64,000 bases of DNA from Candidatus Bathyarchaeota archaeon (GTDB taxonomy: Archaea > Thermoproteota > Bathyarchaeia > Bathyarchaeales > Bathycorpusculaceae). The translations under genes and the position numbers were made by a program. This document shows positions 7,372 through 59,439 of this stretch, piece by piece (within the stretch, counting starts at the first letter, position 1; each line of letters opens with the position of its first letter). The stretch is taken from NCBI GenBank assembly GCA_026014725.1, contig JAOZHV010000022.1:186001-250000 (forward strand), written 5' to 3'. The notes under the pieces were generated by a model that saw nothing but the letters and a program-made list of their open reading frames with translations, searched no databases and had not been told where the DNA came from.

Positions 7372-10300
7372 CTATTGACCAACAGATTTTCGGCGCCTCT
7401 TTTGCACTAAAAAGCCACCCAAAATTAAAAGAACCACAACCAACGGTATCGACAAAAGCAACCACGAAAATTCTGCTATGGATGAAGACTGCACCTTGAA
7501 GACAATTGACACGTTATGCGTACTGAATCGCAGTGTGAACCAAACATAGTAATTGCCGGAGTCCTCAATGTAACCTTGGTCTTGACACAACTCATCGTCT
7601 ACGAAAACCCTCGCCGATGTCCCAGCCTGTATCAAGCTTTTAGGAATAGTGATATTGCAGAACCCTGCCGTGCCATCTTCGCCAGCCAAAACAAACGACA
7701 ACATTGCCGTGGATGAAGATTGATTCACTGTAAAGCGGGCACCAGATATTTGCGTAGCACTTATGTTTCCAGTAATGGCAAGGTTAACTGTTGCACCGTC
7801 CGCCGTTATCGCTTGAATAGTTGCTGAGCTTTGCGGCGAAGACGAAGACGGAGTCGGCGAAGGCGTTGGCGTGGCAGTTGCCGTTGGAGAGGGCTGCGGC
7901 GTAGCTGTTTGCGCTGGAGAGGCTTTTGCAGTTATGTTAATTAGCGCTGTTGCTGTTGCGTTGTTGCCAGCTGGGTCCTGCACAGTTAACGTTGCTGTGT
8001 AAGTTCCAGTTTGCGAGTAAGTATACACAATAGACGCCCCTTGAGCTCGGTTGCCGTCTCCGAAATCCCACATATAACTAACGATTCCGTTGCTGTCAAA
8101 ACTGCCACTTCCATCAAAACTGACACGCAATTCTGTGGTAACCACTTGTTCATCCTTAATTTTTGCTGTAGGCGCAGTTTTATCCAACTTAATCTGTGTT
8201 ACAATTTTATGCGGTACCTCTTCGTTACCGATTAAATCTACACTCCAATACTCCAACGTGTTATTACCACCTTCGATGGTGATTCGGGGCTGCCCATCAA
8301 CGCTGAGGGTTTTCACTGTGCCATTATTTATCCTATAATAAGTTCCAGCTACCCCAAACGGTTCATTAACAGTAAGAGTAATCGTGAAATCAGCAGAATG
8401 CCACAAACCATCATAATCATCAATTGTTACAGGCGGAGTTTTATCCAAAAACCAAACCAGCATATTTTTCAACATAGCACCACAATCCGCATTGGAAGTC
8501 CAATCATCAACCCCATCACCGTTCCAGTAAACAACATTACCCGGAATACCTGCGGTTGCAATAATTTTGTCATATCCGTTGGCTAGCTTGGCAATCGTTG
8601 TCGCATTCTTAGCTGTGTCAGCTCTTGCCGCATCATTGTCTTGATAGAGACCTGTGATATGGTATCCTGCAGCGAATTTTCCATACGGACCATCCACTAT
8701 TGGGTGGGAAGCATCCTGCACATACAAGTCAGGCTGGTTGTAATTGTCACCGACAGTTGATGAGCGGACGATGTTTGCCATTCTCATGTCGTTTGGGAAT
8801 CCCAGCGAGTCGTGACCTGTAACTAGCAGGTTACCTCCAGAAGCTAAATAAGCGTTAAGGGCTGATTCCTCATTGCTTGTTATGGCGCGTTGATAGTTAT
8901 AGAAAATCACCACGCGGTAACGCTGGAGCAAAGTCAGGTTTTCCGTATACAAGTAGACAGTATTGTTCTCGAAAATTTCATAATTCAGCATTAAAGTATC
9001 AAGAATTGGTACAATAGTCCAAAGCTCCGAATAATCAGATATTAAAGCAATTTTATCACTAACAGAGACCACCCTGCTCTTCACATTGTTTTGCGTTACC
9101 TCTTCGCTATTTACTGGTGCAACAAAAGCTGTAACGTTGTAGAGCGCTTCAATGGTAGGGTTCCAAGAGACACTGGTCTGGACAGATGAACCACTGGTTA
9201 AGCTGGCATAAGTTTTGCTACTAAAGAGTTCACCGTTTATGAAAATTTGAAGCACAACATCCGCTTCACTGCTCTGCCCAAAGTTATACACAGTCACATT
9301 AACAAGAGCCGTTTCCCCCACTTGCAAGCCCTTAGGCGTCTGCAAAGTAACAGCTATCTCATGCTGACTTCTGTTCTGAATAAAGGGAACATACCCCGAA
9401 TTAGGCATCCAATCCCAGTCTGACCAAGCGTCACAGAAGGCGCAGTCAAAAAAGTCATCTGCTCCTAAATCCGATAGATTCACGCCTACAACAAAGGAGT
9501 TGGAGTTGTCTGGGGCATCAAGGTAAACTATGGGGATGGCAGTCTCAACATCAAAGAAACCAAGTGTATTGTTCCATTTCCAAACTGCTGGTCCTTCATC
9601 ACCCACAAGAATCATATAATCTGTGCCCATGCTAGTTTTCTGCCCAAAGTAATATCCATCAGGCAAACCAGTGCGAAAGTTCTGGTCTACATCAATCAAA
9701 ATTGAGACGTCAACATCGCTTTTCACCGTGCGCCATTGACGATAAAACTCAAGCTTAAAAAAAACTACACCCGATTGCAACTGACTATAACCAGCCTTCA
9801 GACCCATACCTTTTCCCTCATCTGGGTCAGTAGCAAGCAAAGTAAAGTTAGCCTCATTTGGCGGAGTCACCACGTTTAAATTGTGACTGAATTTGTTGTT
9901 CTCAATTAGTGTTTCACCAGAAACTGGAACTATCGCAAAAGTGACGTTATAAAGCCCCGGTGTGCTAGGCGTCCATGAAAGGGAAACAAGCGCGGAAGCA
10001 CCTGATGCTAAAGAAGCCACGGTTGTAGAATTAACTAAACTACCGTTTGCAGACAACTCAATACGCACATTAAACTCGTTTCTGAACCCCCTATTGAAAG
10101 CTGTAAAATTGAAGGCTATCGGAATCCCTGTTTTAATAAACGTGCTTGGTGTTGTCCAATTAAGGGCAACTAGGTCGTGTTCAAGGGGGGTCTGCCCTAC
10201 GGCATTTTTTGCGTTAATTCTTCCGTTACCATAGTAAATATCAAAACCTACTACGCCTAAGTCGTCGCTTGTGGTTTCCAGTTGGTAACGAACCAGATTT

Positions 10301-11493
10301 GCAGTCATGCCAGGGTACTGGCTCCAAATGAGCGCTGCAACTCCTGCGGCATGGGGACACGCCATTGAAGTTCCGCTCATGTATGCATAATTACGGGAAT
10401 ACCCTTTACTGTTTAATGTCACGGAATAGGTGGGCATGGTTGAGTATATCGAAACTCCCGGAGCTGCAACATCCACCCACTCTCCATACGTGCTGAACAA
10501 AGCTACAGCGTCAGATTCGTCAGTGGCTGTCACTGCAACCACATTATCATAAGAGCTTGGATATTGCAACTCGTTTTTACCTGTATTCCCAGCGGCGGCT
10601 AAGACGAGAGCGCCATGTTCGGTAGCGTAAGTGATTGCTTCATAGACGAGAGAACTTGATTCGTTGCTTCCCCAACTGTTACTGATAATTTGAGCCCCTT
10701 TGTCCACAGCATGTTTGATTGCCTTCGCTAAATTACTTGAGTAGCCGCTTCCATCTGCACCGAGAGCTTTTTCAGCCATAATGCGGACTTGCGCTAATCC
10801 CGCGATGCCTATTGAATTATTAGTTACTGCGGCGATTATTCCTGCACAGTGCGTTCCATGTCCATTATCATCAAGTGGGTTTGAGTCCTTGTTGACCCAA
10901 TCATACCCTAAAGATACATAATTTGATTTTAAATCAGGATGATTATAATCAATGCCTGTGTCAATAATGGCTACCAGTATGCTTTGGTTGCCTGCTGTTT
11001 TATCCCATGCATAATCAGCCTGTATCTTTTTTGGTCCCCATTGAATACTCCAATATGTATCGTTTGGCACTGAATCAACCGTGAACAGGATGTTTGGTTC
11101 AACATAGTTTGAGAAACCTGAAGCTCTTAACTCCCCAGCAAGCGAAGATGCTGATTTCGCAGATATATTCACGACGATTGCATTGGATTTTCCCATTGAA
11201 ACAGTATCGACGATTTCGCCGCCTTTCTCGCGTATAATTCTTGATAAGCCAGCAAAACTGTTAGATTTACTGCTGACGCCTATCACTAACTCAACTGAAC
11301 TTTCGTTTTCAAAGTTTGCCTGAGAATTGACATCCCAACTCATCGAATAACGTGCTGGGTCATCTGCTGCGTTAACACTCTCAGCGGAACTAACTTGGGG
11401 CTCAAACGGCATGTTGGCAAGCGCAAAGTTACTAGTTAAAATCAAGGAAAGGGTCAATAGTGCTATTAGCTTGTAAACTCCAAGCTTTCCCAT
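7372..11493 (-). CDS. Large secreted subtilisin-like (S8) serine protease with CARDB and PKD domains
   Basis: 1373 residues with a signal peptide at 1-26. A prodomain of roughly 65-140 precedes the catalytic domain. The triad is Asp178 (IIDTGIDYNHPD), His212 (DDNGHGTHCAG) and Ser376 (MSGTSMACPHAAG), and the oxyanion Asn is N303 (AAAGNTG). Downstream are two CARDB-like beta domains (about 440-540 and 705-805), a DOMON-like or unclassified beta region between them, a stretch resembling a class I amidotransferase-like fold (about 830-1000), and a PKD domain near 1160-1230 (MWDFGDG). A Ser/Thr/Pro linker and one C-terminal helix with a basic tail (about 1345-1373) follow. It is probably tethered outside the cell and degrades environmental protein or matures surface proteins. 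Confidence 0.95.
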   Translation of the reverse strand: MGKLGVYKLIALLTLSLILTSNFALANMPFEPQVSSAESVNAADDPARYSMSWDVNSQANFENESSVELVIGVSSKSNSFAGLSRIIREKGGEIVDTVSMGKSNAIVVNISAKSASSLAGELRASGFSNYVEPNILFTVDSVPNDTYWSIQWGPKKIQADYAWDKTAGNQSILVAIIDTGIDYNHPDLKSNYVSLGYDWVNKDSNPLDDNGHGTHCAGIIAAVTNNSIGIAGLAQVRIMAEKALGADGSGYSSNLAKAIKHAVDKGAQIISNSWGSNESSSLVYEAITYATEHGALVLAAAGNTGKNELQYPSSYDNVVAVTATDESDAVALFSTYGEWVDVAAPGVSIYSTMPTYSVTLNSKGYSRNYAYMSGTSMACPHAAGVAALIWSQYPGMTANLVRYQLETTSDDLGVVGFDIYYGNGRINAKNAVGQTPLEHDLVALNWTTPSTFIKTGIPIAFNFTAFNRGFRNEFNVRIELSANGSLVNSTTVASLASGASALVSLSWTPSTPGLYNVTFAIVPVSGETLIENNKFSHNLNVVTPPNEANFTLLATDPDEGKGMGLKAGYSQLQSGVVFFKLEFYRQWRTVKSDVDVSILIDVDQNFRTGLPDGYYFGQKTSMGTDYMILVGDEGPAVWKWNNTLGFFDVETAIPIVYLDAPDNSNSFVVGVNLSDLGADDFFDCAFCDAWSDWDWMPNSGYVPFIQNRSQHEIAVTLQTPKGLQVGETALVNVTVYNFGQSSEADVVLQIFINGELFSSKTYASLTSGSSVQTSVSWNPTIEALYNVTAFVAPVNSEEVTQNNVKSRVVSVSDKIALISDYSELWTIVPILDTLMLNYEIFENNTVYLYTENLTLLQRYRVVIFYNYQRAITSNEESALNAYLASGGNLLVTGHDSLGFPNDMRMANIVRSSTVGDNYNQPDLYVQDASHPIVDGPYGKFAAGYHITGLYQDNDAARADTAKNATTIAKLANGYDKIIATAGIPGNVVYWNGDGVDDWTSNADCGAMLKNMLVWFLDKTPPVTIDDYDGLWHSADFTITLTVNEPFGVAGTYYRINNGTVKTLSVDGQPRITIEGGNNTLEYWSVDLIGNEEVPHKIVTQIKLDKTAPTAKIKDEQVVTTELRVSFDGSGSFDSNGIVSYMWDFGDGNRAQGASIVYTYSQTGTYTATLTVQDPAGNNATATALINITAKASPAQTATPQPSPTATATPTPSPTPSSSSPQSSATIQAITADGATVNLAITGNISATQISGARFTVNQSSSTAMLSFVLAGEDGTAGFCNITIPKSLIQAGTSARVFVDDELCQDQGYIEDSGNYYVWFTLRFSTHNVSIVFKVQSSSIAEFSWLLLSIPLVVVLLILGGFLVQKRRRKSVGQ

Positions 11494-11687: not shown

Positions 11688-12350
11688 ATGAGTTGGGAAC
11701 AACTAATCACTGACTTCCTAAACCCTCCAAACACTTATCAATCGCTGACAATCGACAGAGTCCTCACAGCGCTACTGGTAGACTTTGCAATCAGCCTCCT
11801 AATTTTCTACATTTACCGAAAAACCTTCAAAGGAATTGTTTACACAAGAGAATTCAACGTAGGTCTGGTCCTAACGGGCTTAGTGGTAACTCTAGTCGTG
11901 TTGCCAATCAGCTCCAACATTGCCCTGTCACTTGGCATGGTTGGGGCTTTGAGCATCGTGCGTTTCCGAACAGCCATCAAAGACCCCAAAGACATAGTTT
12001 TCACTTTCTGGGCTATTGCAACAGGCATTATCTGCGGCGCAGGAGTTTACATGATTGCCATAGTAGGCGTGCCTGTAATCGCTCTTTTGCTTCTGGTGCT
12101 GGAACGGACAAGTTTTCGCGGTCCAGACCCGTACCTAATAGTGGTTCATTACACAAGTGACGCTGAATCCGCGGTTCAAGCTGCTATGCCAAAATACAAA
12201 ATTCGCTCTAGAACAGCAAACGCTGAAGGCATAGAATTAATGGGGGAAGTTAGAATGAACTCAAAAGACGTGCCAAAAGTAGATGAACTACTAAAAATCA
12301 AAGGCGTAAAAGACACATCAGTTGTAAGCTACACCTCTGGCACAACATAG
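11688..12350 (+). CDS. DUF4956 family membrane protein
   Basis: 220 residues: about four transmembrane helices in the first 150, with the family's conserved 'GMVGALSIVRFRTAIKDP' near residue 85, then a soluble alpha/beta tail of 70 residues. In bacteria, DUF4956 proteins are usually encoded beside VTC-type polyphosphate polymerase domains and CotH kinases. The same association with a VTC gene is seen here, 780 nt downstream. The function is not established; a role in polyphosphate or surface-polymer synthesis is inferred from context. First gene of an operon running to 13873. Confidence 0.88.
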   Translation: MSWEQLITDFLNPPNTYQSLTIDRVLTALLVDFAISLLIFYIYRKTFKGIVYTREFNVGLVLTGLVVTLVVLPISSNIALSLGMVGALSIVRFRTAIKDPKDIVFTFWAIATGIICGAGVYMIAIVGVPVIALLLLVLERTSFRGPDPYLIVVHYTSDAESAVQAAMPKYKIRSRTANAEGIELMGEVRMNSKDVPKVDELLKIKGVKDTSVVSYTSGTT

Positions 12351-12418
12351 TAGCCGTAATCTTGCTGAGAAGAGAACAAATCAGAATATAGCAAAAACTG
12401 TCGTTTAGCTGGTGATAG

Positions 12419-13129
12419 ATGACGAAAACAATCCAAGCGCCAATAGTTATGGTGATAGCGGTTTTGTTAGCGGCTGGACTATTAGTATTTACAAACCTAA
12501 GCAATGATTCCTCATCTACTGGTAATTCATCCGCTACTTCATCCACCGCCAACACGGCAGGTGGCCAATCATTAGTAGTGATTCCACAAGGCTTAGTTAT
12601 CAACGAGTTTATGGCTGATAACGACCGAGCAGTTGAAAGCGTCTTTGGAGGACACCCAGACTGGCTTGAACTATACAACAGTGGAGACACATCAATAGAT
12701 TTAAGCGGTATGTACCTTTCAGACAGCCTTTCAAAAGCCAGCTGGCGTTTTCCCAACGGAACAACGATTCTTCCACACAGCTACCTGATTATTTGGGCAG
12801 ATGCTGATGCAGGTAGAGCGCAGCTTCAGACAAATTTTAACCTCAAAGCAAACGGCGGCGTGATAGCCCTCTATGCGCAAGATCGACAAACATTGATTGA
12901 TTTTGTTATTTATCACAAGCAGATTAGGGATGTTTCGTATGGGCGGCTCCCAGATGGGGGTTCAAGTTGGGATTATATGACGAGTCCAACCGCAGGCAGA
13001 GCTAACGTTGCGAATCCAAGAAAGATTACGCTGGCTTCATGGGAAGTTTGGTTGTTCATCACTATTGCCCTCGCAATCTGCGTGGTTGCGGCATTTAAAC
13101 ATAAATTTCATTTCAGGAGGAAGAGATAA
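12419..13129 (+). CDS. Membrane-anchored lamin-tail domain (LTD) protein
   Basis: 236 residues: a hydrophobic N-terminal segment (about 6-26), a Ser/Thr linker, one lamin-tail Ig-like domain (about 57-180) with the signature 'VINEFMADN' and 'DWLELYNSGDTSIDLSGMYL', and a C-terminal helix (about 203-225) with basic residues. LTDs are secreted beta-sandwich modules often found on CotH-type surface proteins. It is placed between the DUF4956 and VTC genes, and its stop codon is immediately followed by the GTG of the VTC gene, so the three are co-transcribed. No kinase domain is fused to it. Confidence 0.88.
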   Translation: MTKTIQAPIVMVIAVLLAAGLLVFTNLSNDSSSTGNSSATSSTANTAGGQSLVVIPQGLVINEFMADNDRAVESVFGGHPDWLELYNSGDTSIDLSGMYLSDSLSKASWRFPNGTTILPHSYLIIWADADAGRAQLQTNFNLKANGGVIALYAQDRQTLIDFVIYHKQIRDVSYGRLPDGGSSWDYMTSPTAGRANVANPRKITLASWEVWLFITIALAICVVAAFKHKFHFRRKR

Positions 13130-13873
13130 GTGGCTGGCGAAAAAGAAATTCACTTCAGACACGAACTAAAGCACTCTATTAATTTGCTACAGTATCAGGT
13201 TTTACAAAAAAAGCTCGCCACCCTGCTTACGCCTGACCCGAACATGGGAACAAAAAAAAGCTACAACATACGTAATCTTTACTTTGACGATTTTATGGAG
13301 ACCGCTCTTTGTGATAAATCAGCTGGAGTTTTTAAGCGAAAGAAGTACCGCATGCGCATCTATAACCACAGTGATGCAGTAATTAAGTTTGAGCGGAAGT
13401 CAAAAGTTCATCAATACATTTTAAAAGAAAGCACTAGGTTAACGCGGAAGGAAGCTGACCAAATTATCTCTGGCCAGTTTGAGTTTATAGCAAACACCAA
13501 AGACCAACTGTTGAAGGATTTCTATGTAGAAACACGCAACAATCTAATGCGCCCTGTCACGATTGTAGAGTACGACCGTGAAGCTTACATTCACCCAGTC
13601 GGCAACGTAAGAATAACCTTTGACACCAATTTACGCGTAGACATCGGAACAGCATCATTCTTTGACGGCAACCTCAGCACCATGAGCGTGATTGATCAAC
13701 CAGCCGTCCTAATGGAAATCAAATACAACGAGTTCATTCCCCAATACATCTGCGGGCTGTTCCCTGACACCATTAATCCACAAGTAGCCTTCGGCAAGTT
13801 TTCAATGTGCAGGACTCAAAAGAAATGCCAAGCAGGCCCTTCAGCCTGTCGAATACCCTCAAGTTACCATTAA
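13130..13873 (+). CDS. VTC-domain polyphosphate polymerase-like protein
   Basis: 247 residues, GTG start directly after the preceding stop. The VTC tunnel domain makes polyphosphate from ATP. The expected pattern is present: an early 'HELKHSIN', 'YNIRNLYFDD', the basic strand 'FKRKKYRMRIYN', 'KFERKSK', 'IVEYDREAYI', 'VRITFDTNLR' and the acidic strand 'VLMEIKYNE'. These Arg/Lys and Glu residues line the tunnel in characterised VTC4. No SPX domain or membrane segment is present, so anchoring or regulation may come from the DUF4956 partner (inference). Confidence 0.9.
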   Translation: MAGEKEIHFRHELKHSINLLQYQVLQKKLATLLTPDPNMGTKKSYNIRNLYFDDFMETALCDKSAGVFKRKKYRMRIYNHSDAVIKFERKSKVHQYILKESTRLTRKEADQIISGQFEFIANTKDQLLKDFYVETRNNLMRPVTIVEYDREAYIHPVGNVRITFDTNLRVDIGTASFFDGNLSTMSVIDQPAVLMEIKYNEFIPQYICGLFPDTINPQVAFGKFSMCRTQKKCQAGPSACRIPSSYH

Positions 13874-13892
13874 ACGCAGGTTAAAGGTCAAG

Positions 13893-15830
13893 TTAAAAAA
13901 TAGGTTGAGTTTTACGAAGCGAAGTTACAACATTAGTTATTGTAAAGACAGGATTTGCCTTGGTTCCGGGGGTGTATGTTCCGCCAGAGTACAAGCCATC
14001 TACTGCTGTGCCTGTTGTGCTGCCGCCAGTGTAAACCTCATATGTTGTACCTTGTTTAAGGTCAGGTGAAGAGAACACAAAACACTTGTACATTTTTACT
14101 GGCTTAAAGGTAAAGATTTCAGCACCGCCACTGGTTCTTAGATGTAGCAGTGTACCTCCAGATTTACTTGAAGAAAATTCAAACAATACTGAATTTTGTG
14201 TTGATGAAGAATTTGGCCCAACTGCCATTCCAGCGCTCCCAACAGCCAGTATCCATCCGCCTGTCATTTTGAATCCGCCATAACCCCTTGGCGGAGGGAA
14301 ATCGTGGTCAATCGCACTTTCCATGTCTGTAGTTGGACCATCCACAATTACTTTGCCGCCAGTCATTATGATGTCTCCGTTTGAATCAAGACCGTCGGTG
14401 CCTGAATTTACGTAGATATAGCCACCGTTGATGAAGAGATGGTAGTTTCCTGAACCGAACGTGTCTCCACCCCACCCTGGACGAGTGAATCCAGAACCAT
14501 CCCTTCCTCCAGCAACGTTTATGCCATCGTCCCTTGAAACTATGTGAATATTGCCGTTGTTTATGGTTACATTTGCGCTTTCAAGTCCCTCAAAACATTT
14601 TGTAATTGCTATATCTCCGTTATTAATTACCAGTGAGTCGTCAGCATGCATGGCATCATCGTTTGTTTTAAGGTTAAATATGCCGCTGTTGATTGTTATG
14701 GTTCCATTAGAGTGAATAGCATCATCCGATGTGTCAATGGTAAAAGTTCCGCCGTCAATAACTAACTCAACAATTGCCTTAATTCCCTTTGTCGATACGC
14801 CTTGAACAACATTATTGCTGCTACCTCCGCCCGCGTACGCGGTGATTTGTCCATTCTGCATTAAAAAGTCACTTTGTGCATTAATCGCATCTTCTCCAGC
14901 AGTTATTTGTAAAACTCCGTTTTTTATCGTTATGTATCCTCTAGTGGCGTCTTTGGAATCTGATTTTAACCCATCTTTGCCAGCATTTAAATTGATGTTA
15001 CCCTCTTTAACGACAACATAGTCTTTGCCTCTGGCTGCATCGCCTACAGAAGTTACGCTAATTTGACCGCCGCCAAGGATTAGACCATCGTTACTAGATA
15101 TGCCATCATTATAATTTGCTTGAACAGTTAGTGCGCCCGCTCCATAAATGGTAAGGTCTGATTTGCAAAAAATCGCTCCCTTTGGTTCCCCCTCAGCATT
15201 AACAGTATACGAAGAACCATCTGTTATGTTGTTCTGTGTTCCTGCTTCCAGAATTATTACGGTTTTTTTGGCGTCCATAACAAATATTGGAGCGCTATTA
15301 GAACAGTAAATATTGACGTTGTTTAACAGCAACCGTACTGTTGCTTTATCAGCTGTATTCACGATTACTTGTCCATTAGTTAAAGAACCTTTTAACCTGT
15401 AAGTTCCAGCTGACGTAATTGTTACTTTGCCGCCAGTTACTGTTGCAACACTCGAGTTACTAACAGTTATTGAATTGCCATTTAACGTCACATCAACAAC
15501 GTTAGCTTCATTCCACACATAGTCTGCCGCTTCTTCATGATCCGCTTCGTTAACGTGTGGTGGCGGTGGTTCGTCAGTGTTTATGGGGACTTCAATAGGT
15601 GTGGGATTTGTTGTTGGTGAGTTGCTGGATGAATCGGTGGGAGACGAACTTGGGTTGTTGTTAGTTGGTGTGGCAGTGGGAGTGAGAGTAGCATTTGAGC
15701 TATGGTCAGTCTCTTTAGGTTGGTTGGGTTGACTGGCAGGAGTAGCGAACATGAATTGGTATGTTACAAAAGAAGCCGCCAAACATGTGCATAAAACAAA
15801 AACAATAAGGATTTTTTTGTTCACATTCAT
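13893..15830 (-). CDS. Secreted DUF4353 carbohydrate-binding-type beta-helix protein
   Basis: 645 residues: N-terminal signal/anchor (about 7-29), a Ser/Thr/Pro linker of about 65 residues, then a repetitive Asn/Gly/Asp-rich domain with recurring 'INNG', 'GG' and 'DDAI' turns, as in right-handed beta-helices annotated as carbohydrate-binding DUF4353. In bacteria this family is found with CotH, DUF4956 and VTC genes. Here it is convergent with the VTC gene, 19 nt apart at the 3' ends, supporting a shared function on the cell surface. The signal segment lacks a clear cleavage site, so it may stay membrane-bound. Confidence 0.85.
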   Translation of the reverse strand: MNVNKKILIVFVLCTCLAASFVTYQFMFATPASQPNQPKETDHSSNATLTPTATPTNNNPSSSPTDSSSNSPTTNPTPIEVPINTDEPPPPHVNEADHEEAADYVWNEANVVDVTLNGNSITVSNSSVATVTGGKVTITSAGTYRLKGSLTNGQVIVNTADKATVRLLLNNVNIYCSNSAPIFVMDAKKTVIILEAGTQNNITDGSSYTVNAEGEPKGAIFCKSDLTIYGAGALTVQANYNDGISSNDGLILGGGQISVTSVGDAARGKDYVVVKEGNINLNAGKDGLKSDSKDATRGYITIKNGVLQITAGEDAINAQSDFLMQNGQITAYAGGGSSNNVVQGVSTKGIKAIVELVIDGGTFTIDTSDDAIHSNGTITINSGIFNLKTNDDAMHADDSLVINNGDIAITKCFEGLESANVTINNGNIHIVSRDDGINVAGGRDGSGFTRPGWGGDTFGSGNYHLFINGGYIYVNSGTDGLDSNGDIIMTGGKVIVDGPTTDMESAIDHDFPPPRGYGGFKMTGGWILAVGSAGMAVGPNSSSTQNSVLFEFSSSKSGGTLLHLRTSGGAEIFTFKPVKMYKCFVFSSPDLKQGTTYEVYTGGSTTGTAVDGLYSGGTYTPGTKANPVFTITNVVTSLRKTQPIF

Positions 15831-16170: not shown

Positions 16171-18663
16171 ATGAAAACGCTAAACAAGACCATTGCGATC
16201 GCATTTACTCTTATGTTTGCTATAAGCACACTAATCATGTTCGCACCCTCGGCAGAAGCACAAGCTAACACAAAAGCAACATATGCCTATATTGGCGCTA
16301 TACCAAACCCAGTTAACGTCGGTGGAGAGGTTCTAATTCACCTTGGAATCACAGACACCATCGGTTCTGTCGGCTCCGGTTGGGAAGGGTTAACTGTAAC
16401 TGTTACTAAACCCAACGGCGATAAGGTGACATTAGGTCCATTTAAGACTGATTCAACAGGTGGAACAGGCACTGTCTATATTCCAGACGTTGCAGGCAAC
16501 TATACACTCCAAACACACTTCCCTGAACAAAACTATACAACAACAAAGTACCTAGCCAGCAACAGTGAACTTTTAACGCTCCAAGTAATCGAAGGAACAA
16601 TAGAGTATTACCCAGGCGTTCCTCTTCCAGAAGAATACTGGACTCGCCCTATCGATCCCCAATTCAGGGAATGGTACACGGTGGCAGGAAGCTGGTTAGT
16701 AGCCAGTCCTGAAAACCTCTATGTTCCTTACAACGACGCCCCAGAAACTGCACACGTACTATGGAATAGGCCACTTACGCTGGGCGGTCTCGTCGGCGGA
16801 GACGTTGGACTCAACAGTTCAATCAACTTCGGCCCGGTCGGTTTTGAAACTGGAGACGCATATCAAGGCAAATGGACAAGTCGATTCATCATCGCAGGAA
16901 TCCTAATCTACACACACCACACAGCCGTTCGCCCACTTGAATACACAGCCATAAACCTACGCACTGGCGAAGTGCTATGGAAGACAGTATTCGGCGCTAA
17001 CATGTCAATAACAATGTGCCAAACCTACTACTTCCAATCATACAACTACATGGGCACCTACTCATACATATGGTGTGTCTCTGGAACCACCTGGTATGGT
17101 TTTGACCCATTCGATGCAACATTAAAACTCACCATCACTAACGTACCTTCAGGAACTACAATAGTCGGTGAAAAAGGCGACATCTATCGTTGGAGCTATA
17201 CCTCTTCAACACGTCGATTCATGCTGTGGAACCTAAGCGCACTCATTTCAATGGACGGCAGCTTCCTAGGTCCAGGACCATCAACATATAACGCGTCAGC
17301 AACAACTACGACTGGAGCACTAACAGCAGCCGCTCAACGCGCGTATGCATACAACTTCACGTTCCCAGAAGGAACCTACCTTGGTAGCGTCCAAAGAGTC
17401 TATCTGGGTGACAGAATCGTCGGCGCAAACCTAGCTAGAACTGCAGTCGACCTATGGGCCATAAGCTTAGAAAAAGGAAGAGAAGGAACAGTGCTGTTCA
17501 ATAACAAATACACACCACCAGCATACTGGAATGAAGGCAACTTAACTATAAGCGGCTTTGCCGGTGGCTGGGTCGGTTGGAGCATAGAAGACAAAGTTGC
17601 TGTCATGTGGATTAAAGAAACACGAGAGCACTATGGCTTTAGCCTCGAAACTGGAAAGTACCTGTGGGGCCCAACTGAACCACAGCACTACTTGGACGCA
17701 ATTGATGACTCGGCAGACGACGTTCGAAACATTGCCTACGGAAAACTATACAGTGCAAGTGTCGGCGGCGTAGTCTACTGCTATGATGTGAAGACAGGCA
17801 AGCGATTATGGGAATACCATGCAGTTGAACCCTACACTGAATACCTGTTCGCAAGCGACTGGTGGGTGAAACCACTGTTCATCACTGACGGAAAAATCTA
17901 TGTAGCACACTGTGAACACTCAGCCAACCAACCCTTGCCAAGAGACGCTCCATTCATATGCCTTAACGCAACCGACGGCACTGAAATCTTCAGAGTTAAC
18001 GGTATGTTCCGTTCAACTCGCTGGGGTGGACGCGCCATCATCGGTGACAGCGTTATTGCAACAATGGATACTTATGACCAACAAATATGGGCCATAGGTA
18101 AAGGACCAAGCGCCCTTCAAGTGAGCGCTCCAAGCGTTGAGGTTGTTGCAGGAAACAGCATAGTGATATCCGGCAGCGTTACTGACATCTCACCAGGCAC
18201 TAAAGGCTATGATTTGCAAGCAAGATTCCCCAACGGTGTTCCGGCAGTTGCTGACGAAAGCCAAAGCGCATGGATGCGATACGTCTACAAGCAATTCCCA
18301 TGCCCAGAAAACGTTACTGGTGTTGAAGTAACCCTAACTGCCATTGATCCTAACGGCAACTTCATCACACTAGGCACAGCTACAAGCGATGGTAGCGGTT
18401 CATTTGGCTTCCAATGGGAGACGCCAAATGTTCCAGGCAAATACACCATCACCGCAACCTTTGCAGGCTCTAAGGCATACTACCCCTCAGCAGCGAAAAC
18501 TTATGCTGTTGTAGGAGCTGCCCCAGAACCTACTGTTGCGCCAACGGAGAAACCACCAACTGTCTCTGAAACATACTTTGTCCCTGCAATCGCTGGTCTG
18601 TTCGTAACAATCATTGTGATAGGCGCTTTATTGCTGCTAATCATGCTCAGGAAGCGCCCATAA
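16171..18663 (+). CDS. Large secreted PQQ-like beta-propeller surface protein
   Basis: 830 residues: signal peptide 1-30 ending AEA, an Ig-like domain (about 40-140), a propeller of PQQ-type repeats ('INLRTGEVLW', 'YDVKTGKRLWEY', 'LNATDGTEIF') to about 640, a second Ig-like domain (about 650-775) containing QFPCPENVTGV, and a C-terminal helix with the tail RKRP. It is a paralogue of the protein at 59426-62098 with the same order of domains. The gene has its own promoter, a leader hairpin and a T-rich terminator, and could be an abundant envelope or S-layer-type protein; that role is inference. No enzymatic residues for a quinoprotein dehydrogenase were identified. Confidence 0.88.
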   Translation: MKTLNKTIAIAFTLMFAISTLIMFAPSAEAQANTKATYAYIGAIPNPVNVGGEVLIHLGITDTIGSVGSGWEGLTVTVTKPNGDKVTLGPFKTDSTGGTGTVYIPDVAGNYTLQTHFPEQNYTTTKYLASNSELLTLQVIEGTIEYYPGVPLPEEYWTRPIDPQFREWYTVAGSWLVASPENLYVPYNDAPETAHVLWNRPLTLGGLVGGDVGLNSSINFGPVGFETGDAYQGKWTSRFIIAGILIYTHHTAVRPLEYTAINLRTGEVLWKTVFGANMSITMCQTYYFQSYNYMGTYSYIWCVSGTTWYGFDPFDATLKLTITNVPSGTTIVGEKGDIYRWSYTSSTRRFMLWNLSALISMDGSFLGPGPSTYNASATTTTGALTAAAQRAYAYNFTFPEGTYLGSVQRVYLGDRIVGANLARTAVDLWAISLEKGREGTVLFNNKYTPPAYWNEGNLTISGFAGGWVGWSIEDKVAVMWIKETREHYGFSLETGKYLWGPTEPQHYLDAIDDSADDVRNIAYGKLYSASVGGVVYCYDVKTGKRLWEYHAVEPYTEYLFASDWWVKPLFITDGKIYVAHCEHSANQPLPRDAPFICLNATDGTEIFRVNGMFRSTRWGGRAIIGDSVIATMDTYDQQIWAIGKGPSALQVSAPSVEVVAGNSIVISGSVTDISPGTKGYDLQARFPNGVPAVADESQSAWMRYVYKQFPCPENVTGVEVTLTAIDPNGNFITLGTATSDGSGSFGFQWETPNVPGKYTITATFAGSKAYYPSAAKTYAVVGAAPEPTVAPTEKPPTVSETYFVPAIAGLFVTIIVIGALLLLIMLRKRP

Positions 18664-42529: not shown

Positions 42530-42916
42530 TCAAGCGATTGATACTGAGTCTTTTTCTATGCTTACTCTGTTGCCTGTTTTGATTTTTGAGATCTCAATTT
42601 TGTCTACGAATGGGATTTCGCTTATAATGGCTCCGACTGCGACGATGGTTTCTGTTTCTTTATTTATCATGCCTGCGGGTGCGGTGCCGTTTTTCTTCAT
42701 GCGGTACAGCGTGTAGGAGCCGACGGTTGAGCCTTTGCCTTGTGGGAAAACGAGGATTTTGCCTTTGACGCTTTGTCCTTGCAGTTCGTGCCCTTTTTCG
42801 AGCACTATGCCAGTGTTTGGGTCAACTCCGCCATAGAAGCTAATCGGCATCGAAGTTACCAGTGCTTCGCCTTCTGCTTTGCCTTTGTAGATGATTCTGC
42901 CTTTTAATTGTTCCAT
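42530..42916 (-). CDS. Phosphomevalonate dehydratase small subunit (AcnX swivel domain, DUF126)
   Basis: 128 residues from the ATG at 42916 (MEQLKGRIIY). The frame extends upstream, but that part overlaps the large-subunit gene without family resemblance. The swivel domain shows 'GKAEGEALVTSMPISFYGG', 'GKILVFPQGKGSTVGSYTLY', with the Ser of the active site, and 'PAGMINKETETIVAVGAI'. With the large subunit it dehydrates mevalonate 5-phosphate to trans-anhydromevalonate phosphate. The start overlaps the large-subunit stop by 13 nt. Confidence 0.93.
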   Translation of the reverse strand: MEQLKGRIIYKGKAEGEALVTSMPISFYGGVDPNTGIVLEKGHELQGQSVKGKILVFPQGKGSTVGSYTLYRMKKNGTAPAGMINKETETIVAVGAIISEIPFVDKIEISKIKTGNRVSIEKDSVSIA

Positions 42917-44112
42917 TTTCCAGTCACCGCCGCCTCGACGCATTCTTTCATGCTGCCCATTTTTGTTTTCATAAGGTTCTGACGTGAATAGAAGCAGCCC
43001 TTCGCTGATGTTGTTGCCAACGCTTTGAACCTGCCTTTTAGGGGTGCGACTGCCATGCAGGTGTCGCATGCAAATTTGCCGCCCGCCTCTTCAATGATCG
43101 CAGTATACCCGCGCTTGTCGGCAAGCTGTTTTGCTGTTCGGGAAGTAGCAACCCATAGTTCCGTGCCCTCTGCGACTTTTTTGCCTTTTAGCAAAGTGGC
43201 GATTTCAGCGATTTCCTTGATACTGCAGTGGGGGCAGCCGACGCAGACAAAGTCTATGTCGCTAACTTGGTCGTTGATGTTGTCATAAGCGTTTTTGAGG
43301 TCACTTTGCTCTACTACGACCATCTCGGATGGCTGTTTTTGCAGTTCAGCGCCCGGTGTTATGCCTTTCATGTAAAAAAGCGGTTTCGCGCCATACGTTA
43401 CTACGGAAGCGCAGAAGCTTTTGAGTTCATCCAGTTCCGCTGTTTTGATGCCTGTGATGTAGGGGATTTTGTTTTCCGCCTTCTTGCCGATGGCGTAGCC
43501 CAGCGCGCCCCAATCCGAGAGCTTAGTTAATTCTGCGTTAACTTTAACGTGTACATCTGGGACTCGGTTCTCATCTAGATGCAAGCCATAGCAGGGTGTT
43601 TTGCCCACGAAAGCCGCGGCTAACGCGGATGGTCCTCCTTCACGGTTCGTGCGAGCGCCAAGCACCGAGTTTGCGAATGTTACGGCGCTGCTCTCTGACC
43701 ATGCAACATGTTCACCATAAAGTGGCAAATTGCCAATCAAGTAAGGTGTGCAGGTACAGCTTACGAGTATACCCATTCGTGTGAATGCGTCTATTACGAG
43801 GTTTTGTTTCTCTGCAAATTCTGGGCTTATGCCGAGTTGCTGCCAGTTTTCCAAGTCCATGCCTGCTGGGTTTAGGGTTGTGAGCACCCGGACTCTGCCG
43901 TCAGCCGCTAGCGAATTAAGAAATTCTAAGCCTGCATCGCCAAGGTTATGATAAGACACGCCTGCCACTTGAACACTACCCACATCAATCAGACTCTTTG
44001 CACCAAAGATTTCGCCGAGCGCAACTAGGATTTCCATGCTTTTGCGTACAGCGTAGCCTTCAGCACCGTTTAGCATGGCTTGTTCTTGTTTAGTTAACTC
44101 CATACCAATCAC
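42904..44112 (-). CDS. Phosphomevalonate dehydratase large subunit (aconitase X catalytic domain)
   Basis: 402 residues, AcnX type. Cysteines in 'VSCTCTPYL', 'VCVGCPHCS' and 'FACDTCMAVAPL' supply Fe-S ligands; 'GARTNREGGPSALAAAFVG' is the conserved substrate loop. Assignment to mevalonate phosphate, rather than hydroxyproline metabolism, is from context: it lies between a UbiD decarboxylase, mevalonate kinase and IPK. The start overlaps the decarboxylase stop by 4 nt. Confidence 0.93.
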   Translation of the reverse strand: MIGMELTKQEQAMLNGAEGYAVRKSMEILVALGEIFGAKSLIDVGSVQVAGVSYHNLGDAGLEFLNSLAADGRVRVLTTLNPAGMDLENWQQLGISPEFAEKQNLVIDAFTRMGILVSCTCTPYLIGNLPLYGEHVAWSESSAVTFANSVLGARTNREGGPSALAAAFVGKTPCYGLHLDENRVPDVHVKVNAELTKLSDWGALGYAIGKKAENKIPYITGIKTAELDELKSFCASVVTYGAKPLFYMKGITPGAELQKQPSEMVVVEQSDLKNAYDNINDQVSDIDFVCVGCPHCSIKEIAEIATLLKGKKVAEGTELWVATSRTAKQLADKRGYTAIIEEAGGKFACDTCMAVAPLKGRFKALATTSAKGCFYSRQNLMKTKMGSMKECVEAAVTGKWNN

Positions 44113-45416
44113 AAGTACTTGTTTAGGTCAACTTTGAGGTAATCTTGTTTTGCAAAGCCCTTACCCGTGGTCGTGAGTGGTGCAGTCGCGTCTAGTCCTG
44201 CCTTAGCTGTGGTGGCTTTCTTGCCTTCAGACAAATCGCCTGACGGGTCAAGAGAAGAGCCCGGCTGGTTTGAAAGAATCACTATGTTTTTGTCGGCTTG
44301 AAAACGCGTCGCAATAGCCCATTCCACGTCATGTGGGTCATAAATGTTAATGTCCTCGTCAACAACGACACAGTGTTTTAAGGAACCATGCCCTTTGAAC
44401 GCCGCATCTATGGCTTTTTTACCGTCATCAGCATTCACCTTTTTAATCTGCACAACCGCGTGAAGCCAACTGCAACCGCCCGGCGTAATGTAAACGTCTT
44501 TGCACTGGCAAACCTTGCTGACTTCCTTGAATATGGTTGGCTCTTTTGGCATGCCCATCAAAAACTTATGCTCATTTTTCCCCGCCAGAATGGTTTGGTA
44601 GATGGGTTTTTGACGGTGAGTTACACACTTGACTTCCAACACGGGCTGTTGGCGTTGGCGGTCCACTATGCCTGTTAAGTCAAGGAAGGGGCCTTCAGTG
44701 ACTTTCTCTTTGGTGATTCTGCCTTCCAAAACAAATTCGCAGTCAGCAGGCACTTCCAAATCGACAGTTTTGCATTTAACAAGCTCTGTCTTCTCCAAGG
44801 CGTTTGCCATTCCAAGTTCATCAACACCCATCGGCAACGACGTAGCCGCCGCGAGCAACACGGGAGTTGAGTTGCCTATGCATATGGCGATGTCCAGTTC
44901 GCCGCCTGCCTTAGCTAAAGCCGTGTCGGTGCCGCGGTGCTCGACGATTCTGGCGACGAAGTGGTTTTTGTCTTTGAGCATGAGTCGGTGGAAGCACATG
45001 TTTCTGCCCAATTCGGGGTCTTTAATGATGCTTACTGCGCTGGCGACGTATTTGCCGCCGTCTTTCTCGGTATAGTGCATTATTGGGAGTTTGGTTAGGT
45101 CAACGTTGGTTTCTACGACTTCTTGGCATGCGCCCTTAGCTACAACCTGCGGTGCTACAGGGTGTTCGATAGCGCTGAGTAGCTTGGGTAAAAGTTGCTG
45201 CTTAGTTATGCCCATGGAGCGGCAGATTAATTCTTTAGATGAAACCAACCCTGCAACAACGGGGTAGTTTGATTCTTTAACGTTCTCAAAATAGACTGGT
45301 TTTTCGCCCAGCGCGTTTATGATGCCTGCCATCTCGTACTCGGTTGACACTGGCTTTTTTATTCTTGTTAATTCGCCGTTTTTGTCGAGTGTTTCGATAA
45401 AGTTTCTCAAACCCAA
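44109..45416 (-). CDS. UbiD-family trans-anhydromevalonate phosphate decarboxylase
   Basis: 435 residues, prenylated-FMN dependent UbiD fold. 'RNMCFHRLMLKDKNHF', 'IAICIGNSTPVLLAAATSLP', 'EFVLEGRITKEKVTEGPFLD' (E-R-E type residues) and 'VVVDEDINIYDPHDVEWA' are typical. In the modified archaeal route it yields isopentenyl phosphate. The UbiX-type flavin prenyltransferase it needs is not in the window. It is 12 nt downstream of mevalonate kinase. Confidence 0.92.
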   Translation of the reverse strand: MGLRNFIETLDKNGELTRIKKPVSTEYEMAGIINALGEKPVYFENVKESNYPVVAGLVSSKELICRSMGITKQQLLPKLLSAIEHPVAPQVVAKGACQEVVETNVDLTKLPIMHYTEKDGGKYVASAVSIIKDPELGRNMCFHRLMLKDKNHFVARIVEHRGTDTALAKAGGELDIAICIGNSTPVLLAAATSLPMGVDELGMANALEKTELVKCKTVDLEVPADCEFVLEGRITKEKVTEGPFLDLTGIVDRQRQQPVLEVKCVTHRQKPIYQTILAGKNEHKFLMGMPKEPTIFKEVSKVCQCKDVYITPGGCSWLHAVVQIKKVNADDGKKAIDAAFKGHGSLKHCVVVDEDINIYDPHDVEWAIATRFQADKNIVILSNQPGSSLDPSGDLSEGKKATTAKAGLDATAPLTTTGKGFAKQDYLKVDLNKYL

Positions 45417-55060: not shown

Positions 55061-57424
55061 CTATTTTGAGAATTGCAGAGTGAATTTGGTGCCTTTGCCC
55101 GCTTCGCTCTCAAAAGTTATTTTGCCGCCCATAGCTTCAGTCATTCGCTTAACTACTGCCAACCCAAAGCCCTGACCCTTAGCCTTAGTAGTCATCAAAG
55201 GCATGAAGAGTTTGTCCTGCACTTCTTTTGGTATGCCTTCTCCTGTGTCTTGGACGTCAATTATGATTTGGTTTCGTTTGTTGGTTACGTTTATGGTTAG
55301 TTCTCCGCCGTTGGGCATGGCTTGCACGCCGTTTTGGATGAGGTTTACAAGTATGCGCTTAATCATTGTTGGGTCAACAGTAAGTTTGGTTGGTTCTTTT
55401 GCGTTGACATTTACTTTGATGTTATCAGGCACCGATACCATCGCCAATGCGTCAGTGATTGCTTTCTTGGCTTGCACTTTCTCTTTCTTGGGGTTTAAGG
55501 GTCTGGCAAAATCTTGGAGATCAGCGATAATCTTATTCATGTACAATATGTTTTCCTCAATACTATGGATGCTCTCAAGCAAGTTCTGTTTAGCCTCATC
55601 CTCTGGTAGCGACTCAACCTCAAGCTTCTCAAGGTACAACTCGCTGGTTATCGCCTGTAAAGGATTACGAATATCATGACCAACCATAGCGGCGGTCGCA
55701 CCAATTGCAGATAATCGCTCAGCATCTTTAAGTTGGCGCGCTCTCTCCTCAGCAAGCTTCTCCATCTGCGAAGCGTACTCTTCAACTTCAACGGCTTTGT
55801 CCTCCAGTATTGCCTGCAGTTCCTTTTGGTTATAGAGTGATTTAGCAAGTTTGACGTTTGAGTGGCTAAGTTTAGAGATTATCTCCGTTAGGCGAGCGTA
55901 GAAAACCATTAGCTGCTCAATTTTTTCTTTGCTGAACCGTGGTACACGTTCAAGTGCGGCAAGGTACGCTTCTCTATTAAAGCCGTATTTCTCAGCTTGG
56001 GTAGCAAACACGTCGCGGTTAATCTTTTGTTTCTCAAAGAAAAATTGACCAAAGAAAACATTGCCAACGTGCTTATTGCCTATATATAATGGTGTTACAA
56101 CTTCTTGCATGTTGTTTTTGCACGTGTAGATTTTTATTTCGCCTTTTTTGAGACTGCCTGAAAATTGCAAGTCGCTTTCTAGACATTTCTCTAATGATTG
56201 CGGATTAATCCTGTGAAACTTTGTGCATATGTCTTGCCAACCCGTGTTGATGAGCACGTTTCCCTTGAGGTCTTTGAGTGCAAACCCCATGTTAGTTACC
56301 TCGTAGAGGTGGTTCATGGTTGCTTGCAAGGAAGACACATCTATGATGTTGGCTAAGTCCTGCTCCTCGATTTCGACATCTGGAGATAATACTGAATCCA
56401 ACTTGAACTGTAGTCGCTCTTCGCTTTCGCGCAATGCTTCCTCAATGGCTTTCCGTTCAGCAATTTCTTGCTCTAGTCTATCGTTAACTTCGGTTAGTTC
56501 TCGGGCGCGGTTTGCCAGCGATACTTCGCTTTGTTTTAGGTTGCGGAATAGCAATTCGAAGGGGTTAGTTAGGCTTGTCTCAACCAGAGCAATGTAAATG
56601 CAATAAAAAGACCCTATGTTTACTAAATGTCCTATCATGTTTGAGATTCCATAAACATCAGTGTACAGTGTGAAGGCCATTTCAGTGGCAATCGCCAATG
56701 CCATGGCAGTCAATAATAGCTTGAAAATGCGTCCGCTGAATTCTCGTCTTTTTTTGATTAAGACAACGATGGAAACGAGTATGATTGCTGATATGACGTA
56801 TTCGCTGCCTATTTTGAAAGGCGTTAGTTGATCTATTATGTCGTTATAGGCTTGCGGAAACACTCCAAAGTAGATTGAAAGAAGAATCAATCCTGAAATA
56901 ATAGTGTAACTTGCAATGGTAATAATTGATTTAACTTTGTGGTGAATCAAAAGTAGCGGCACAAGAAATGAAAAACTAAGTAAGTATCTGGTTGCTATCC
57001 ATAACTGAGTTGCCAAGTTGGCGCCAGCATCTGGGAAAACTCCCATCCCTTTGTATGCTAATGTATGGATTAGAGCCAGTATGGCAACAAAAAGCAGTGC
57101 GATACCGATTATTTTGAAATAACTATTGTCCACTAAGCGTCTGGTATTCCATGCTATGGCAAAGATGGCTATGGCAGTTACTATGCTAAAGATTTCAACA
57201 AAAGTGTGGAAGAGCAGGTAATTTTGCTGGCTCAAATAATACAGTAATACCAAACCCGCGACCGCGATTACAATTATCAGTATCGTCCGTATGTTTGAAT
57301 GTTGAGTTGAGCGATTTTCTCGATAGTCTTTGGCAAAGTCCTCGCTGATTCCCCTCTCACCTCGCCCCTCCAAAGAGTACCCAATGAAAATCTCTTGAGT
57401 ACTTAAAAACAGTTCTGATGGCAA
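55061..57424 (-). CDS. Membrane sensor histidine kinase with MASE3-like and PocR domains
   Basis: 787 residues. About seven to eight helices (48-290) form a MASE3-type membrane sensor. A coiled coil (300-345), a PocR ligand-binding domain (about 360-505; 'DVSSLQATMNHLYEVTNMGF' with Cys residues at 'CTKFH' and 'CLESD'), a second coiled coil, and a kinase core follow. The phospho-acceptor His is in VGHDIRNPLQAI; the ATPase has NLIQNGVQAMP, DTGEGIP and GQGFGLAVV. No receiver gene is adjacent. The stop is 3 nt from the convergent MEMO stop. Confidence 0.92.
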   Translation of the reverse strand: MPSELFLSTQEIFIGYSLEGRGERGISEDFAKDYRENRSTQHSNIRTILIIVIAVAGLVLLYYLSQQNYLLFHTFVEIFSIVTAIAIFAIAWNTRRLVDNSYFKIIGIALLFVAILALIHTLAYKGMGVFPDAGANLATQLWIATRYLLSFSFLVPLLLIHHKVKSIITIASYTIISGLILLSIYFGVFPQAYNDIIDQLTPFKIGSEYVISAIILVSIVVLIKKRREFSGRIFKLLLTAMALAIATEMAFTLYTDVYGISNMIGHLVNIGSFYCIYIALVETSLTNPFELLFRNLKQSEVSLANRARELTEVNDRLEQEIAERKAIEEALRESEERLQFKLDSVLSPDVEIEEQDLANIIDVSSLQATMNHLYEVTNMGFALKDLKGNVLINTGWQDICTKFHRINPQSLEKCLESDLQFSGSLKKGEIKIYTCKNNMQEVVTPLYIGNKHVGNVFFGQFFFEKQKINRDVFATQAEKYGFNREAYLAALERVPRFSKEKIEQLMVFYARLTEIISKLSHSNVKLAKSLYNQKELQAILEDKAVEVEEYASQMEKLAEERARQLKDAERLSAIGATAAMVGHDIRNPLQAITSELYLEKLEVESLPEDEAKQNLLESIHSIEENILYMNKIIADLQDFARPLNPKKEKVQAKKAITDALAMVSVPDNIKVNVNAKEPTKLTVDPTMIKRILVNLIQNGVQAMPNGGELTINVTNKRNQIIIDVQDTGEGIPKEVQDKLFMPLMTTKAKGQGFGLAVVKRMTEAMGGKITFESEAGKGTKFTLQFSK

Positions 57425-59418: not shown

Positions 59419-59439
59419 ATGAAAAATGCAAATAACTAG
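59419..59439 (+). other. Six-codon leader ORF overlapping the surface-protein start
   Basis: The Shine-Dalgarno AGGAG (59409-59413) is best spaced (5 nt) for an ATG at 59419, which reads MKNANN and stops. The surface-protein ATG at 59426 is 12 nt from the same Shine-Dalgarno, in another frame. Ribosomes may initiate on either, or reinitiate. Confidence 0.4.

Follow-up and report, generated by a model that had tools for sequence, protein, structure and literature searches.

The window analysed here, a stretch of 64,000 nucleotides from a Candidatus Bathyarchaeota archaeon (contig JAOZHV010000022.1), encodes between positions 11688 and 15830 a cell-surface module composed of a DUF4956 membrane protein, a lamin-tail-domain (LTD) protein, a VTC-domain protein and a beta-helix protein. 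Across archaea and bacteria the VTC protein, a putative triphosphate-tunnel enzyme, is nearly always found with a membrane protein carrying a basic patch and with an anchored partner, and membrane-coupled synthesis of a polyanion is the simplest reading of this association. We tentatively propose that VTC and DUF4956 together would perform membrane-coupled synthesis of polyphosphate (or another polyanion), with an outer anchored partner at the cell surface.

The DUF4956 (11688-12350, + strand, 220 aa), LTD (12419-13129, + strand, 236 aa) and VTC (13130-13873, + strand, 247 aa) genes lie on one strand, while the beta-helix gene (13893-15830, - strand, 645 aa) is convergent on the opposite strand. 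Pfam assigned these four products with E values of 1.7e-13, 8.4e-18, 1.3e-34 and 4.8e-91, respectively, the last to Cthe_2159, which is the current Pfam name for DUF4353. The scan agrees with the original prediction, made from the letters of the window, of a DUF4956/LTD/VTC/DUF4353 module at these coordinates and on these strands. The GTG start codon of the VTC gene begins at the first base past the LTD stop (a gap of zero), and a perfect AGGAGG ribosome-binding site, read directly within the end of the LTD gene (13116-13121, + strand), ends 8 nt upstream of this GTG. Due to this arrangement, the LTD and VTC proteins are very likely co-translated.

The VTC protein scored 120 bits against a Pfam cut-off of 23. 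It consists of the VTC domain alone and appears soluble, with no SPX domain, no transmembrane part and no hydrophobic segment; the eukaryotic SPX-TTM-TM architecture is consequently not present in this protein. Its predicted structure has a mean predicted local distance difference test score (pLDDT) of 80. A phmmer search of the PDB with the single sequence returned no useful match, and the comparison with PDB entries needed profiles, with 3g3q as the alignment reference. Foldseek analysis of the model gave yeast Vtc4 (3g3r) as the best match (E 1.4e-11, TM 0.63), ranked above every triphosphatase, and the same-fold relatives in the output were triphosphatases and cyclases. Apart from R264, R266 and E426, the Vtc4 residues compared below are those that we take to line the tunnel, their positions having been checked on the 3g3q alignment. 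In this alignment, K14, K63, R74, R76 and K90 of the window protein correspond to Vtc4 K200, R253, R264, R266 and K281, and K99, Y148, R150, E196 and K223 correspond to K294, Y359, R361, E426 and K458. Ten of the eleven tunnel positions are thus retained, K63 being a lysine in place of R253, and each of the ten is present in 109-112 of 113 VTC sequences. Mutation of R264A/R266A/E426N impairs yeast Vtc4 (PMC9911596), and the equivalents of these three residues (R74, R76 and E196) are all intact. Loss of the basic tunnel residues had been set beforehand as a finding that would speak against the original prediction; the residues were instead found to be retained. These results suggest a triphosphate-tunnel fold and a putative polyphosphate polymerase.

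The genome carrying the window (2.56 Mb, 97% complete) contains no PPK1, and neither PPK2 nor Ppx/GppA was detected above cut-off. VTC is therefore the only gene of a polyphosphate-synthase family above cut-off and the one synthase candidate of this genome. This finding would also suit plain cytosolic storage of polyphosphate by VTC, with DUF4956 regulating and the surface genes as mere neighbours. We consider storage improbable, as no Ppx/GppA above cut-off is available for mobilising a store and surface partners accompany the core in widely separated branches. A mutual exclusivity of PPK1 and VTC was ruled out, both being present in four genomes. Two surveys of archaeal polyphosphate enzymes sought PPK1, PPK2 and PPX and left VTC unmentioned (PMC6864096, PMC6355812), while in a paper from 2026 VTC4 is given as an exclusively eukaryotic protein (PMC13318637). 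No description of the archaeal form of the VTC-DUF4956 module was found in the accessible literature. If active, the VTC protein would provide archaea with a candidate polyphosphate synthase.

The DUF4956 protein (PF16316) scored 51 bits against a cut-off of 30.6 and has five predicted helices (residues 22-46, 54-74, 78-94, 100-117 and 121-140), followed by a predicted ACT-like C-terminal domain at about 147-214. The mean pLDDT of its AlphaFold model is 79. The top Foldseek matches, although weak, were MgtC C-terminal domains (7qa5 and 2lqj, E about 2e-3). DUF4956 shares with MgtC a multi-helix membrane part, an ACT-like C-terminus and weak NCBIfam MgtC/SapB matches, but it belongs to a different Pfam family characterised by the motif LGMVGALSIVRFRTAIKDP, is tied to VTC, and scored 22.9 bits on NCBIfam NF007431 against a cut-off of 214. 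The protein is best described as MgtC-like, resembling MgtC from outside the MgtC family proper. R92 and R94 were found in 108/108 DUF4956 sequences and K98 in 107/108. By the positive-inside rule, the R44/K45/K48 and R92/R94/K98 loops would be cytosolic, placing the N-terminus outside and the C-terminus inside. An open reading frame (ORF) of approximately 195 aa adjoining VTC in loci L202-L209 is a distant relative of DUF4956 with the motif GLFALFSVLRYRTE, scarcely detected by the DUF4956 profile; the two share an LRYRTE motif and otherwise weak homology, and the relative may deserve a separate family.

To define the distribution of the module, 257 Bathyarchaeia genomes were surveyed with family cut-offs applied. 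Full VTC was present in 14 genomes and DUF4956 in the identical 14, a few kilobases apart. Above cut-off, the beta-helix family was confined to 12 of these 14 genomes, lying at the module in 11 and on a separate contig in G152. These associations correspond to Fisher p values of ~1e-23 (VTC/DUF4956) and ~1e-18 (beta-helix), both uncorrected for kinship. Pairwise distances of VTC correlated with those of DUF4956 (r 0.97) and of the beta-helix protein (r 0.91; Mantel p 0.0005). Weak matches to VTC (G015) and weak fragments of DUF4956 (G036 and G038) belonged to no module and were discarded. The module is unevenly distributed in the genus to which the window belongs, with 7 genomes positive and many negative, and the VTC+DUF4956 tree intermixes genera and phyla, indicating that the module has moved or been lost as a unit; we take it to be a horizontally mobile cell-surface module with VTC+DUF4956 as its core. 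One genome (G079) carries no copy of the archaeal-clade module and instead holds a separate bacterial-type VTC-DUF4956-beta-helix copy (L016), which groups with Syntrophomonas.

A wider comparison, covering 115 archaeal and bacterial loci, demonstrated the same linkage beyond the class. VTC adjoins DUF4956 in 101 of these loci and the distant DUF4956 relative in 9 more. Gene order varies: DUF4956-LTD-VTC in a Methanomethylicus locus, LTD-VTC-DUF4956-beta-helix in a Lokiarchaeote and VTC-DUF4956-beta-helix in a Methanocellaceae archaeon, the last arrangement forming a single operon in seven Methanosarcinales-like genomes (an affiliation guessed from neighbouring genes). VTC-DUF4956-CotH was found in three further genomes, and VTC, DUF4956 and CotH occur together in five Asgard genomes. 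In ten more genomes VTC is found with CotH (seven), with a beta-helix protein (one, L206) or with neither (two), and nine of these ten VTC loci adjoin the distant relative. The commonest sets in Bacillota are CotH-VTC-DUF4956 and [LTDx3+CotH]-DUF4956-VTC, and Paenibacillus cellulosilyticus has VTC-DUF4956-beta-helix without CotH. Several loci come from a single genus, as would be expected if the genes were neighbours by chance and synteny had preserved them in closely related genomes. We give this explanation a negligible probability, because the same core and partners recur in varied order in Bathyarchaeia, Methanomethylicia, Methanocellaceae, Lokiarchaeota, Methanosarcinales-like genomes and Bacillota. 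Random occurrence of the neighbours in relatives, named beforehand as evidence that would count against the module, is likewise contradicted by the shared set of 14 genomes and the conserved linkage. Searches of plasmids returned homologues only.

The outer partner is interchangeable, and in the module studied here a putative sugar-binding protein usually takes the place of the bacterial CotH kinase. Among the 115 loci CotH is present in 77, the beta-helix protein in 22 and both in 1, a lamin tail being a further alternative. The beta-helix gene is co-directional with VTC-DUF4956 in L084, L087, L190-L196, L016 and L157, and it joined the core separately in about five branches of the VTC tree. 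The archaeal clade is set off by a long, fully supported branch in the VTC+DUF4956 tree. By raw count the beta-helix protein co-occurs with CotH in only 1 of 22 loci (Fisher p 1e-11). Significant mutual exclusion of the two was nonetheless rejected: only 5 independent pairs lie on supported branches, and although none is opposite, the effect is not significant allowing for kinship. The exchange of CotH, LTD and beta-helix partners suggests a cell-surface role for the core whatever the outer protein.

The LTD protein of the window has hydrophobic segments at residues 9-27 and 208-226 by hydropathy, a basic tail after the latter and an LTD domain spanning residues 58-165, in accordance with the original claim that it is anchored by its own helix. 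It is an LTD-only protein, and, as also claimed, CotH is absent from the module and indeed from the genome. CotH does occur in three related Bathyarchaeia genomes (G130, G047 and G172), always in the module and fused ahead of LTDs. The class thus contains DUF4956-[CotH+LTDx2-5]-VTC (L020, L027, L028), DUF4956-[LTDx4]-VTC (L023), DUF4956-[single LTD]-VTC (the window, L017, L018, L021, L022) and directly adjacent DUF4956-VTC genes without LTD (L019, L024, L025, L026). All of the LTD proteins in the class begin with a hydrophobic segment or signal, continue with extracellular domains and end in a helix, which in most of them has a basic tail; the N-terminal segment of the L022 protein falls under the hydropathy threshold applied. 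This common topology of CotH-LTD and LTD-only proteins suggests that the window protein is the same kind of protein without the kinase. It is probably a remnant of a CotH-LTD protein, and L023 and L021 are placed among CotH-bearing relatives in the VTC+DUF4956 tree. The four families had been described as known together in bacteria with CotH. CotH-VTC-DUF4956 is indeed a common bacterial set, but the description does not extend to the CotH-less beta-helix set of Paenibacillus cellulosilyticus or to the CotH of the three archaea. The lack of CotH, proposed as a special mark of the window archaeon, is not supported as such, because several archaea and also bacteria have forms without CotH and close relatives have CotH-LTD fusions.

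The prevalence of CotH (77/115 loci) raises the alternative that the core feeds phosphate or a phosphoryl donor to CotH for surface-protein phosphorylation, the CotH-less archaeal module being partly decayed with a leftover function. The series of CotH-LTD fusions in three relatives, LTD-only proteins in others and loss of LTD in more is compatible with such decay. However, VTC, DUF4956 and the beta-helix protein are strongly conserved where CotH is absent, and the near exclusion of the beta-helix protein and CotH (1/22) looks like replacement; this alternative receives little credence from us.

The beta-helix protein (PF14262, 305 bits) aligns with the crystallised Cthe_2159 sequence (PDB 4peu; phmmer E 6e-31). 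It has an N-terminal signal/anchor helix by hydropathy and a Ser/Thr/Pro linker. Cthe_2159 proteins bind cellulose and polygalacturonate, as established for the C. thermocellum protein (PMC6712302), and the window protein is a putative polysaccharide binder by membership of the family. It differs from Cthe_2159 (PDB 4peu/4phb) in being longer, in its N-terminal anchor and linker and in having a gene that faces or joins the VTC-DUF4956 unit. An ORF of 165-200 aa whose start is Cys-rich (for example, ICQVCGQTYRGIALNTVKNGK) recurs beside the beta-helix gene in L022, L024, L025 and L026, and none was seen at the module of the window.

Taken as a membrane-coupled synthesis system, the module might function as follows. 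Cytosolic VTC would use ATP to make polyphosphate, or a similar polyanion, inside its tunnel while docked to the cytosolic side of the MgtC-like DUF4956 protein. The R92/R94/K98 patch of DUF4956 could then receive the chain, as basic residues in the transmembrane helices of Vtc1/3/4 do in yeast, and DUF4956 would either conduct the chain outward or gate the synthase upon binding of a ligand by the ACT-like domain. An outer anchored partner (a CotH kinase, lamin-tail or Cthe_2159 beta-helix protein) would link the product or complex to surface polysaccharide or matrix, these partners being the lamin-tail and beta-helix proteins in the window archaeon. The yeast VTC complex couples synthesis with translocation via basic transmembrane helices (PMC9911596). 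The archaeal module resembles the Vtc4/Vtc3/Vtc1 complex in tunnel fold, catalytic residues and putative coupling to a basic membrane partner, whereas its VTC protein lacks SPX and a fused transmembrane part and DUF4956 is unrelated to Vtc1 in sequence as tested. A more specific version, in which VTC and DUF4956 constitute an overlooked prokaryotic route of polyphosphate synthesis and export with a membrane part unrelated to that of yeast, and archaeal polyphosphate goes to the beta-helix surface protein, we regard as doubtful. Of the polyphosphate-linked surface system originally predicted, a single archaeal cell-surface module with its tunnel residues kept and undescribed in archaea has stood up to analysis; its link to polyphosphate is one of homology only.

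A bacterial counterpart, a biofilm accessory cluster that is still poorly understood, is known from exopolysaccharide loci. A CotH-PPP-DUF4956 set has been described as a Pel accessory group in Gram-positive pel clusters, some with DUF4832 (PMC7112168), and SIR_1592-1594 of Streptococcus intermedius is a CotH/polyphosphate polymerase/DUF4956 set, an arrangement not found outside Pel loci in that study (PMC12345266). In our comparison the core lies within Pel clusters in 29 bacterial loci (PelF PF11997, PelG PF16933). The window shares with the accessory cluster linked VTC and DUF4956 homologues, in the window with the LTD gene between them, and a secreted or anchored third protein. The accessory cluster has a surface polysaccharide context, in bacteria, while the window has no CotH, neighbouring pel genes or DUF4832 and contains a single-LTD anchored protein and a beta-helix protein instead. 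A pelDEADAFG link was not found, and no archaeal locus lay in the shared Pel gene families (pel genes elsewhere in the window genome were not searched). The archaeal loci place the core far outside Pel, with different outer partners. If VTC is active, this would hint at the purpose of DUF4956 and make it possible to test what the Pel accessory genes do.

In S. intermedius, the Pel level rises on DUF4956 deletion and falls on CotH deletion, and both mutants aggregate less (PMC12345266). Such effects on Pel and aggregation count in favour of the proposed surface system. The phenotypes also make a regulatory role the main rival: VTC may in practice sense or trim triphosphates or polyphosphate instead of acting as a polymerase and, with DUF4956, tune surface polysaccharide or matrix assembly across the membrane. 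The small effect of VTC loss in the same work, the MgtC-like nature and ACT-like domain of DUF4956, and the triphosphatases and cyclases sharing the fold of VTC are in agreement with this role, while the Vtc4 catalytic residues, intact in nearly all sequences, and the Foldseek ranking of Vtc4 argue for synthesis. We judge the regulatory role possible but rather unlikely.

Several observations weigh against membrane-coupled synthesis. Deletion of the S. intermedius VTC gene, SIR_1593, changes little, and Pel and aggregation persist (PMC12345266). Our literature search found no assayed prokaryotic VTC, and Foldseek did not reveal any structural relationship of DUF4956 to the transmembrane region of the Vtc proteins. 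The position of Vtc4 K455 is not conserved and is occupied by A220 in the window protein. The LTD protein appears dispensable, being missing in 5 of the 14 Bathyarchaeial loci. A weak PPK2 match, below cut-off, is present in the window genome, and PPK1 accompanies VTC in the four genomes noted above. Finally, tree building relied on quick searches, and many forks are weak in the tree of VTC alone.

The closest named relatives of the genome are Bathyarchaeota metagenome-assembled genomes. Pfam identified the three genes adjoining the module as subtilase, PQQ-repeat and GDSL genes. The subtilase (7372-11493, - strand) is a secreted protein of 1373 aa with CARDB and PKD domains; its gene is divergent from that of DUF4956 with 194 bp between them, and the same divergent neighbour occurs in L025 and L026. 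It could be an additional module member within the genus or reflect synteny. PQQ-repeat propeller matches were obtained in two large proteins (16171-18663 and 59426-62098, both + strand). An aconitase X gene adjoins a UbiD-family decarboxylase gene with a 4-nt overlap (42904-45416, - strand), a pair that we presume may belong to an archaeal mevalonate route. A histidine kinase with MASE3 and PocR sensor domains is encoded at 55061-57424 (- strand).

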